Assembly (NCBI GenBank): GCA_017410325.1
Contig: JAFQRA010000029.1
Location: 1-52,203, forward strand
Direction of reading: 5' to 3'
Origin: Clostridia bacterium
GTDB lineage: Bacteria; Bacillota; Clostridia; Oscillospirales; Acutalibacteraceae
DNA length: 52,203 bases
The position numbers were made by a program, and so were the translations under genes. This document shows, one piece after another, positions 21,624-29,244 of the stretch. How positions within the stretch are numbered: position 1 is the stretch's first letter; every line of letters starts with the position of its first letter. The notes below the pieces were generated by a model. The model searched no databases. It saw only the letters and a program-made list of their open reading frames with translations, and was not told the DNA's origin.

Positions 21624-21695
21624 GCAGGGAACGCTCTCGACCGTTCCGTTAAGTCAGGTGTAACCTTACGGAACGCTCAAGAGCGTTCCCTACAG
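21624..21695. repeat. Convergent pair of REP-like hairpins
   Basis: The only content seen in the roughly 300-bp gap between padR and the methyltransferase gene, apart from the padR promoter. The left unit has foot GCAG at 21624-21627 and stem GGAACG/CGTTCC (21628-21633, 21642-21647). The right unit, on the minus strand, has foot GTAG and stem GGGAACGCTC/GAGCGTTCC (arms within 21669-21690). The two face each other across TCAGGTGTAA and together make one larger inverted repeat. Confidence 0.75.
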
Positions 21696-26997: not shown

Positions 26998-27612
26998 TTA
27001 TTTGTTTACGTAAGTTAAAACAACATTACCGTCACGGCAATATTCAACGCAGGTAACCGAAATATTTTCAAGCGCAAACCTGAACGAATGAGGGGCGTCG
27101 CCGATTGCAGTCGTTATAAGGTATTCAAGCATACCGTGGTGGCTGAAAACGGCTGCGGTTTCGCCGAAGGTGAAGCGGTTTTTAATGTAATCAATCACGC
27201 GCTTTGCACGCTCAACGTTATCCTCATACTCTTCACAGCCAAAGGAATACTCTGCGGTACCGAAAAGACTTTCGCACATTTTAGTGTTCCCGTAATAACG
27301 GCGCAGATACTCCTCACTGCAGCCGAAATAGCCGGGTGTACAGCCGCACTCAATAAGCTCGGGGCAGATTTCAAGCACGGGCTTGTCCTCCCTCGCCCTG
27401 CAAACACCCGTTGCGGTTTTGAACGCACGCAGAAGCGAGCTTGAAATAAAGCCGTCTATTTTCTCATTTTTCAGCTTTTCGCCGAGGATATCGCATTGCT
27501 CTTCGCCGGTTAAGGTAAGGTCACCGTCGCAATTGTCACGGTCGCCGATATCGCCGTAATCCGTTTCCGCGTGGCGGATGAAAAGGATTTTTAAAGTATC
27601 GTTAGTCTGCAT
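26998..27612 (-). CDS. Histidine phosphatase (phosphoglycerate-mutase-like) family protein
   Basis: 204 residues from ATG 27612 with AAAGGGTGG in front. The catalytic LFIRHAETDYG motif (phosphohistidine) is near residue 13, with SSSLLRAFKTATGVC as the second basic motif and AAVFSHHGMLEYL as the last histidine. It is a cytoplasmic phosphatase of unknown substrate; alpha-ribazole phosphatase and generic metabolite phosphatases look alike. First gene of an operon with the NhaC-type carrier. No promoter was recognised; the region upstream is filled with REP-like hairpins. Confidence 0.88.
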   Translation of the reverse strand: MQTNDTLKILFIRHAETDYGDIGDRDNCDGDLTLTGEEQCDILGEKLKNEKIDGFISSSLLRAFKTATGVCRAREDKPVLEICPELIECGCTPGYFGCSEEYLRRYYGNTKMCESLFGTAEYSFGCEEYEDNVERAKRVIDYIKNRFTFGETAAVFSHHGMLEYLITTAIGDAPHSFRFALENISVTCVEYCRDGNVVLTYVNK

Positions 27613-27649
27613 AATTCCACCCTTTCGGTTATTTTGCAAATGGCTGTTT

Positions 27650-27673
27650 GTAGGGGCGACCTTTGGTCGTCCG
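27650..27673 (+). repeat. GTAG-foot REP-like hairpin
   Basis: Foot GTAG then GGGCGACC-TTT-GGTCGTCC. First of five units that fill the 340-bp gap between the histidine phosphatase and PH-domain genes; nothing else was seen there. Confidence 0.75.
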
Positions 27674-27708
27674 TATTACCGATATATCAATGTTAATTTG
27701 ATTATCCT

Positions 27709-27733
27709 GTAGGGGCGATTCACGAATCGCCCG
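27709..27733 (+). repeat. GTAG-foot REP-like hairpin
   Basis: Foot GTAG, stem GGGCGATTC/GAATCGCCC, end CCG. Confidence 0.8.
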
Positions 27734-27758
27734 TAATTTACCGTCATATCTCTTTTAC

Positions 27759-27786
27759 GGCGGACAAGCAAGCGAATTGTCCCTAC
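27759..27786 (-). repeat. GTAG-foot REP-like hairpin, inverted, divergent stem
   Basis: Minus strand: GTAG, then GGACAA...TTGTCC with a 9-nt loop, end GCCG. Confidence 0.6.
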
Positions 27787-27816
27787 TATCTTGTTTCATC
27801 TTAAAGTTGACTTTTT

Positions 27817-27840
27817 GTAGGGGCGGATATTATCCGCCCG
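27817..27840 (+). repeat. GTAG-foot REP-like hairpin
   Basis: Foot GTAG, stem GGGCGGATA/TATCCGCCC with almost no loop, end G. Confidence 0.8.
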
Positions 27841-27860
27841 TGTTGATAACGCTCAGTTTG

Positions 27861-27884
27861 CTGGCGGCTGATAGCCGCCCCTAC
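27861..27884 (-). repeat. GTAG-foot REP-like hairpin, inverted
   Basis: Minus strand: GTAG, stem GGCGGCTA/CAGCCGCC. It faces the preceding unit, a tail-to-tail arrangement as in BIMEs. Confidence 0.75.
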
Positions 27885-27952
27885 TGTGAAGTTTTAGGTG
27901 AAACAAGGTACTACAACATATTCTCTATCTTATCATCCCGACAAATCCGAAA

Positions 27953-28390
27953 TTATCTTTTCATCGCTTTATTTTCCTCAAACTTCTTCGGGCAATATTC
28001 TTTCAGCAACTTGGTAATCTGTTTATTTTTGCTGATTGTGCCGTCCATAAAGGAAGGTGTTTTATCCACGGTGCGGTAGTCAATTTTGTAAGACTTAAGC
28101 CAGACGTATCTCTTGTAGTGGAAATTATGACGCTCTCTGATTGAAATGACCTTATTCCACGGGATATTTTCTTCAAGACCGAAAAAGTATTTAATTGTAA
28201 GCGAATCAGCCGTAAAAACGTAATATATCGGCGAAATTAAAATCAGGACAGCCTGCACAACAGTCGCCGCTACGCCGAGAACACCCCAAGCTGTGTCCAA
28301 ACGGAAAAAACAGAAGGTAAGCACGGCGAACACCAGCATATCAGCCGTGAAGCCCAATATTCGTCTGTTGAAAATTTTTTGCTCGTCCAA
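27953..28390 (-). CDS. Small membrane protein with bacterial PH-like domain
   Basis: 145 residues. Two membrane helices (about 11-28 and 33-53) are followed by a YdbT/bPH-type segment: YYVFTADSLTIKYFFGLEENIPWNKVISIRE and a positively charged C terminus. The start is TTG at 28390 with AAGGAG 8 nt upstream; no ATG is near. Function unknown; such proteins often act in envelope stress. Promoter at 28458-28486. Confidence 0.7.
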   Translation of the reverse strand: MDEQKIFNRRILGFTADMLVFAVLTFCFFRLDTAWGVLGVAATVVQAVLILISPIYYVFTADSLTIKYFFGLEENIPWNKVISIRERHNFHYKRYVWLKSYKIDYRTVDKTPSFMDGTISKNKQITKLLKEYCPKKFEENKAMKR

Positions 28391-28457
28391 ATAAGATACT
28401 CCTTACAACGGAAGGAGCAAGCCCCTGCCCTGCGTATTTTTTAAACAACGATTTAGT

Positions 28458-28486
28458 ATTATAACATAATCCGCAAATAAAAACAA
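28458..28486 (-). promoter_or_regulatory. Promoter of the PH-domain gene
   Basis: Minus strand: TTGTTT (28481-28486), 17-nt spacer, TATAAT (28458-28463). The -35 box is the U-tract of the upstream terminator. Confidence 0.6.
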
Positions 28487-28520
28487 CCGCTGTGTTATTT
28501 AAAGCATTACACAACGGTTG
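28478..28520 (-). terminator. Intrinsic terminator of the esterase-kinase-AraC operon
   Basis: A stem of CAACCG...CGGTTG extended by TGTGT/ACACA (arms within 28484-28496 and 28507-28520), then GTTTTTATT. Confidence 0.75.
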
Positions 28521-28527
28521 GATAATT

Positions 28528-29244
28528 TTAACATTTCAGCATTTTCACGTATTCGGTCGGGGTCATATTGTAAAAGCGCTTAAAAGCCGTTACAAAATAG
28601 GACTGTGAGGAAAAGCCGAGTGAAGAACAGATTTCCTTAGTGCCCGTGTCCTGCCGAAGCATTTCCTTTGCCTTTTCGAGCTTTTGGCGCATTATGTACG
28701 TGCCGAGGTTTTCACCCATCTCTTTTTTGAAAACCTGCGAAAGGTAATCCGCCGAAATTCCGCAGCGCTCTGCGATATCGGCAACGGTAATTTTGCGTGA
28801 AATATTTTCATTGATATACATTACGCAGTTTTTCGTGTGCGGCGAAAATTCAGGCTTGCATTTACTCTTTTTTACCTCGTGTGTAAGCTTTACAATTTCC
28901 GACCCCATAAGCAGAATTATATCGTTTTTGTTTTTCAGCTTGTCCACGGCCTTTATAACACGGTCGGAAAAAGCATAAGCCTTTGCTTCGTTAAGTCCGC
29001 CCTGAATTGCGTAGCGTGTGGCAAGAGTGATTGTGCTGACAGCCATATATTTATGCTGCATAAGCTCATCGTCAGACATTTCGCCCATAACGACAAGAGA
29101 ATCTATACCCTTGATTTGCTGCAAAAGAGAAGTGACATCACCCTGCTGAATACAGGAAAAAAGGCGTATTTCAGCGCTGTAGGGTGTGTGCTTTTCGCCT
29201 TGTTCGGTAAGGGTTTTAACGCTTATAAGCTCGCCGATATTCAT
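28528..29244 (-). CDS. AraC-family transcriptional regulator
   Basis: 238 residues. The C-terminal 100 residues hold two HTH motifs: ITVADIAERCGISADYLSQVFKKEMGENLGTYI and TKEICSSLGFSSQSYFVTAFKRFYNMTPTEYVK. The N-terminal 130 residues are helical and without a recognisable cupin, so the signal is unknown. Its ATG overlaps the stop codon of the kinase gene (TAATG), so it is made with the kinase and esterase and may control their expression. Confidence 0.92.
   Translation of the reverse strand: MNIGELISVKTLTEQGEKHTPYSAEIRLFSCIQQGDVTSLLQQIKGIDSLVVMGEMSDDELMQHKYMAVSTITLATRYAIQGGLNEAKAYAFSDRVIKAVDKLKNKNDIILLMGSEIVKLTHEVKKSKCKPEFSPHTKNCVMYINENISRKITVADIAERCGISADYLSQVFKKEMGENLGTYIMRQKLEKAKEMLRQDTGTKEICSSLGFSSQSYFVTAFKRFYNMTPTEYVKMLKC

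Follow-up and report, generated by a model that had tools for sequence, protein, structure and literature searches.

What are the five short hairpins that lie, each beside a GTAG, within 235 bp (27650-27884) of a 52,203-nucleotide stretch of DNA from a Clostridia bacterium, and what brought them together? The stretch, hereafter the window, is contig C26 of a 2.67-Mb draft genome (G000; 39 contigs, 96% complete). A sequence-only reading had proposed five GTAG-footed units at this place and had assigned them, on account of their feet and their opposite orientations, to the repetitive extragenic palindromes (REPs) associated with REP-associated tyrosine transposases (RAYTs). All five units were found there, and the assignment has been borne out by dispersed copies, mostly in inverted pairs, and by RAYT genes in the same genome. 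We have good confidence that the cluster is a mosaic of GTAG REPs similar to a bacterial interspersed mosaic element (BIME), in which the REPs and their inverted pairs (REP doublets forming hairpins, REPINs) would be RAYT substrates, while an inverted-repeat element, here called A, docks on the GTAG ends, or feet, of resident REPs.

Composition of the cluster

The cluster consists of one single REP, one REPIN and one inverted-repeat element with a second REPIN as its core. The single REP, of family E (GTAGGGGCGACCTTTGGTCGTCC, 27650-27673, plus strand), is identical to the sense arm inside a RAYT gene on contig C11 of the same genome. The REPIN belongs to family B (27709-27786); its plus-strand arm (GGGCGATTCACGAATCGCCC, 27709-27733) is identical to arms inside the RAYT genes L082, L192 and L211 of other genomes, and its inverted partner B' (27761-27786, minus strand) has a 6-bp stem and a 9-nt loop and had no matching arm among the RAYT genes compared. 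The foot of B', CTAC (27783-27786), is at the same time the left direct repeat of element A, which occupies the 124 bp from 27787 to 27910 (plus strand; subfamily A2; tips TATCTTGTTTCA and TACCTTGTTTCA) and is followed by a right direct repeat, again CTAC, at 27911-27914. Within the element, core arm A (GGGCGGATATTATCCGCCC, 27817-27840, plus strand) is identical to in-gene arms of RAYTs in genomes G127 (L195) and G254 (L214), while its partner A' (GGGCGGCTATCAGCCGCC, 27861-27884, minus strand) is close to the arm GGCTACCAGCC in the RAYT gene L172 of genome G001. Exact matches to RAYT arms, in the own or in related genomes, thus exist for the units at 27650, 27709 and 27817. The proposal of a simple five-unit cluster has to be amended, since the last two units form the core of a larger element placed at the foot of the middle pair. 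The last of the five units ends in AGC and not in CCG.

The units at 27650, 27709, 27817 and 27861 have stems of 7-8 bp, perfect or with a single wobble, and loops of 3-4 nt. The window contains five instances of GTAG with a perfect stem of 6 bp or more starting no more than 1 nt after it, and four of these fall inside the 235-bp interval; in 60 order-2 Markov simulations the mean number was 0.47 and the maximum 3. Folding as single-stranded DNA gave z-scores of -3.1 for 27650-27673, -3.7 for 27709-27786 and -5.3 for 27817-27884, reaching -7.1 for the whole of A.

REP copies, pairing and covariation in the genome

A genome holding only a few such units, which the sequence-only reading had named as an argument against REPs, was not what was found: the strict pattern GTAGGGGCG-N8..24-CGCCCG has 55 matches, compared with none for the reversed pattern. 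A covariance-model search gave 169 matches at E <= 5, partial and opposite-strand ones included. In a census of 47 retrieved stretches plus the window, that is, of chosen stretches and not of the whole genome, 149 GTAGGG hairpins with 54 distinct sequences were catalogued; the 73 neighbouring pairs no more than 60 bp apart comprise 50 with GTAG outside (REPINs), 18 with GTAG inside and 5 in tandem. Among the features of GTAG REPs, an unpaired GTAG beside a short perfect or near-perfect stem, many dispersed copies and inverted pairs with GTAG outside are observed.

Lack of covariation had been named as a second argument against the assignment. In an alignment of 15 distinct units, six of the eight stem pairs are changed on both sides, and none of 500 shuffles scored as high. 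Since these units had been picked partly for their hairpins, a separate test was confined to the three inner pairs, whose bases the strict pattern does not fix, and counted pairs instead of using R-scape. All three pair in 40 of 48 distinct sequences (the 24-base ones among the matches listed, transcribed by hand, other lengths being left out), whereas 5000 shuffles of partners averaged 8.0 and never exceeded 19. The stems of the cluster differ mainly because the units belong to separate REP families, several of them with counterparts among the in-gene arms of different RAYTs, and not through drift of a single family.

RAYT genes and the REP arms inside them

The third argument named beforehand, absence of a RAYT-like gene, does not apply either. 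An alignment search of the own genome returned five loci with six matches between them, and the gene at one locus is frameshifted. Both histidines of the HUH motif, the tyrosine and an asparagine four residues after it are invariant in all 13 proteins aligned, the proline following the asparagine being missing in two. The best NCBIfam family was the REP-associated tyrosine transposase in all seven proteins tested, and the best Protein Data Bank (PDB) match of the alignment was TnpArep (4er8, 3.8e-12). The single REP and the inverted pairs of the window look like non-autonomous substrates of HUH/tyrosine RAYTs (TnpAREP) resembling subclass 2.4.

In 31 of 45 RAYT open reading frames (ORFs), a set made up of the alignment-search loci and others, a sense REP precedes and an antisense REP follows the HUH codons, the two arms spanning 167-230 bp from end to end. 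A 5' arm only is present in six further ORFs, a 3' arm only in four, and no arm in four, so that 41 of the 45 genes carry at least one REP arm of their own, with 46 distinct arms in all. Of the 30 alignment-search loci alone, 22 have both arms (one of these genes being broken), six have one arm and two have none; among the six one-arm loci, one hairpin lies antisense before the HUH codons and another overlaps the end of the ORF. The 45 leave out L173 and L175 (3' arm only), L079 and L171 (5' arm only) and L073, L010 and L203 (both arms, the last two genes being broken), as well as repeats of genes already counted (L146, L191, L223, L074 and L072). As separate observations, the frameshifted RAYT of the own genome (C32:66827-67323; L010, L222) retains both arms, and the open frame of L073 (G020:C60) contains REP hairpins of two different families.

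Where GTAGGG stands at the arm positions, a hairpin comes after it in 37 of 38 sense and 35 of 37 antisense cases, the random control being 6.0% of 3000. Moreover, similarity is far higher between the two arms within an ORF than between arms taken from different ORFs (0.51 vs 0.10), the maximum of 5000 permutations being 0.255 (25 distinct combinations). A single reading-frame phase accounts for 36 of 37 sense and 28 of 35 antisense arms, and the in-gene arms therefore look inherited rather than repeatedly inserted. Four more GTAGGG hairpins lie elsewhere in these ORFs. In the predicted model of the L150 protein (pLDDT 76), the sense-arm segment (residues 40-47) would form a loop, with pLDDT below 50 at residues 42-47, and the antisense-arm segment (residues 97-104) a loop between a strand and a helix. 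These REPs are intragenic, unlike the extragenic cluster of the window.

Element A and its docking on REP feet

A REPIN enclosed on either side by an imperfect inverted repeat of about 30 bp makes up element A, which is 123 bp long in subfamily A1 copies and 124 bp long in the window copy, of subfamily A2, and contains no transposase gene. BLAST located 36 places in the own genome with at least 83 bp of A, 29 of which have junctions readable on both sides (left out were two tandem copies on C10, two at contig ends, one partial copy and two in which the core was not found). A lies at a REP foot, intact or decayed, in 24 of these 29; identical 4-mers, GTAG or CTAC, one of them the REP foot, flank 20 copies, and 4-mers with one mismatch flank four (C28, C20, C27:83773 and C25). 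Of the five exceptions, two have REPs on both sides and three have none. Two copies, C32:107714 and C27:4374, have GTAG on the left and CTAC on the right with no adjoining REP. It is plausible that these two and the two with REPs on both sides arose by recombination between A copies, but comparison with genome G008 gave no support for this beyond about 33 bp of flank. In G008 itself, where some copies are at the same loci as in G000, nine of the 11 A copies listed adjoin a REP foot (identical 4-mers in seven, one mismatch in two), one has no REP and one has a broken end.

For nine A loci besides that of the window, both flanks were present in relatives. A clean empty site, in which a solo hairpin is accompanied by one CTAC, occurs at C27:66999 in G005 and in G008 and at C21:25250 in G008; a diverged empty site occurs at C24:43113 in G008, G005 having no REP there. 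At C8:36483 and C4:29897, A is present in G008 too, and neither A nor a GTAGGG unit is found in G005 (both loci) or in G004 (the former locus). At the remaining four (C27:54339, C27:10661, C18:232130 and C22:10045), A is absent and the REP region is also missing, shortened or different. The two clean empty sites and the diverged one, each with the REP kept, indicate that A is mobile. Among the features of a miniature inverted-repeat transposable element (MITE), small size, lack of a transposase gene, terminal inverted repeats and target-site duplication are observed.

The A1 and A2 tip variants mostly change together at the two ends. Tip matches among 39 genomes numbered 57 in G000, 25 in G008, five in G003 and one each in G005 and G016. 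Two loci of G003, L166 (C8) and L167 (C5), have A-like tips, longer arms and a D-type REPIN core, the tip ends of L166 being 184 bp apart; that such tips enclose a D-type REPIN implies that the core of the element is exchangeable. The L166 copy lies between two CTGC.

Setting of the cluster and other REPs of the window

The cluster is extragenic, between two minus-strand genes, a histidine phosphatase (PF00300, 26998-27639) and a 145-aa ORF (27953-28390) without a Pfam match. Two REPs should be added to the units listed in the sequence-only reading. A sixth REP, of family D (GGAACGCTCTTGAGCGTTCC, 21669-21693, minus strand), is related to REPs in and around the RAYT gene L009 on contig C29 of the same genome, the arm match being approximate, as it is for the 27861-27884 unit. 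A decayed family-F REP with the foot GCAG (28410-28433, minus strand) was read by eye and overlaps the right end of a block, 27603-28415, which comprises the REP cluster and the 145-aa ORF and is wholly absent from G005 and G008. The absence of the whole block means that the window locus gives no test of REP movement. As an observation apart, the right end of the missing block falls within the decayed REP.

Occurrence in the order and points against the interpretation

REPs of this kind had been called unusual in a Clostridium relative, a view that does not hold: at least one strict match was found in 100 of 295 genomes of the order, although some single matches may be due to chance, and a RAYT match at 1e-10 in 67. 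At least three strict REP matches were present in 48 of 67 RAYT-positive vs 25 of 228 RAYT-negative genomes (counted by hand from tables; Fisher test). Two genomes, G174 and G282, have 220 and 119 strict matches, respectively, and no RAYT match at 1e-10.

Several results weigh against the interpretation proposed. The association between RAYTs and REPs is inflated by shared ancestry, relatedness being uncorrected; 10 of the 67 RAYT-positive genomes have no strict REP match, and 1 to 7 matches to the reversed control occur in part of the 295 genomes. The genomes are drafts in which repeats may be misjoined, and related sequences were counted as if independent. All seven RAYT proteins tested score under the curated NCBIfam cut-off (58-77 vs 80 bits), and of the 24 REP units that A adjoins at the foot, at least five are decayed (C8:36483, C7:6610, C37:91684, C4:15032 and C18:232130). 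Furthermore, none of the five RAYT loci of the own genome matches family A or family B, which makes the present activity of these families here uncertain. Finally, G008 (86% complete) has 37 strict REP matches and no Pfam Y1_Tnp match, Pfam being the only search for RAYTs made there; since Y1_Tnp alone recovers 2 of the five RAYT loci of the own genome and misses three, a missing Pfam match in a relative is weak evidence.

Alternative explanations

The hairpins might be ordinary intrinsic terminators or RNA hairpins that do not move, as a position between two minus-strand genes would allow. This is very improbable, given the GTAG foot in either orientation, the inverted pairs, the identical copies at dozens of loci and the empty sites of the A family; moreover, an Rfam scan of 27000-28600 gave no match at the cluster, a sub-threshold mir-5 at 28475-28531 being the only one reported. 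As a full explanation, terminators are ruled out by the empty sites of A in relatives, although the hairpins may have a secondary transcriptional role.

A question which concerns A alone is the enzyme that moves it. A could be a MITE mobilised by an unrelated DDE-type transposase, with long terminal inverted repeats, a 4-bp duplication, a preference for REP feet and the REPIN as a passenger. The imperfect inverted repeats, about 30 bp long, the pairing of their tip variants, the identical 4-mers around most readable copies, the exchange of the core in G003, once with CTGC on both sides, and the lack of a RAYT with A arms among the five loci of the own genome all agree with this account, to which we would give an even chance. 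Nevertheless, the two copies with GTAG on the left and CTAC on the right do not show a simple duplication, and no autonomous partner was seen, no inverted tip pair more than 184 bp apart being listed in the 39 genomes (at most one mismatch; the lone G016 and G005 matches were uninspected). Alternatively, A could be moved by a RAYT, CTAC or GTAG being the cleavage site and the apparent duplication consisting of the element end plus the target, as in IS200/IS605. RAYT genes of other genomes contain an arm equal to one core arm and an arm close to its partner, the strand folds strongly, and TnpAREP is reported, in the portion of PMC8266576 available, to cut at CT next to REPs, a dinucleotide contained in CTAC; however, this account, which seems somewhat less likely, would need a RAYT that was not found in a 96%-complete genome. 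The one-mismatch copies (the four of G000 named above plus L167, L180 and L189) and the CTGC copy favour neither model, and the junctions of A, as far as they can be read, fit both. The site of insertion and the empty sites, like the units, their families and the in-gene arms, are read directly from the letters.

Relation to known systems

The comparisons that follow hold for the portions of the cited papers that were available. The GTAG REP families of Di Nocera et al. (2013; PMC3733652) have an unpaired GTAG end, a 6-13-bp stem and a short loop, form mostly head-head dimers 20-100 bp apart, and occur as several families per genome with repeat-specific REPtrons. The units of the genome studied here share the GTAG end, stem, short loop, dimers, multiple families and apparently repeat-specific transposases, but differ in that GGG next to the foot is common to their stems. 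In that paper, the main text contains no word beginning Clostridi or Firmicutes, its figures and supplements being outside this statement. GTAG-15 dimers inside long palindromes of Anabaena variabilis (PMC3733652) resemble A as REP dimers within a longer inverted repeat; the portion available describes for them no insertion into other REPs and no empty sites.

In TnpAREP subclass 2.4 (Quentin et al. 2018; PMC6006769), REPs are inserted in the gene with the reading frame kept. The RAYTs studied here share with it the HUH, W/F-Q and Y---N motifs (Y---NP in most) and the frame-keeping in-gene REPs; unlike subclass 2.4, most genes here hold two REPs, sense before and antisense after the HUH codons. 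The insertion sequences (IS) ISPsy8, ISPpu9/10 and ISRm22 (PMC1525189) insert at one fixed point of REPs with a short direct repeat, as A does, and imperfect repeats at such sequences were ascribed to possible recombination between copies. In contrast to them, which encode transposases and break the REP, A, at 123-124 bp, has REPs of its own and no transposase gene, and the hairpin at its foot stays whole.

Literature searches gave no title on REPs or RAYTs in Clostridia, supplements and most subscription journals being outside their coverage. One Bacillota species of interest here is Acetivibrio clariflavus, which we take to be a member of the Clostridia. Palindrome counts for Bacillota including this species are tabulated in PMC12306157, whose available text contains no word beginning RAYT, and such counts being in print weighs against a claim of first sight. 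In-gene REPs (subclass 2.4, PMC6006769) and REPs as insertion targets (PMC1525189) are, going by the available parts of these sources, already known. The additions made here are the two-armed in-gene arrangement, the wide occurrence in an order of Clostridia and a REP-bearing miniature element docking on REP feet, none of which was found in the literature on REPs and RAYTs searched, within the portions available.

Proposed mechanism and implications

We infer that RAYTs have moved these particular units of the window and that each enzyme and its hairpin form a cognate pair. A RAYT would bind the folded GTAG hairpin on single-stranded DNA, cut near it and then copy or move the REP, and the in-gene arm pair would keep each RAYT linked to its own substrate. 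As a second layer, element A, with its REPIN core, would land on the GTAG/CTAC foot of resident REPs, building clusters like that of the window. A further proposal, held tentatively and with somewhat less than an even chance, is that RAYT genes of this order of gut Clostridia tag themselves, most of them carrying an inverted pair of their own REP around the HUH codons, and that A is a second-tier parasite landing on the common GTAG foot.

Experiments on RAYTs and REPs have been described for three proteobacterial systems in the available part of PMC8266576. The present results bear on two questions, the recognition of a REP by its RAYT and the spread of REPs. In this context, the 46 arms in 41 related RAYT genes constitute a natural enzyme-substrate set from which rules of specificity could be read, while the foot-targeted A, together with the empty sites in close relatives, offers a direct marker of movement and a way into why REPs gather in clusters. 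If RAYT genes do tag themselves, specificity and substrate would diverge together and one genome could host several REP systems that do not interfere with each other, while A, with its swappable REPIN core, would exploit the GTAG foot common to all of them.
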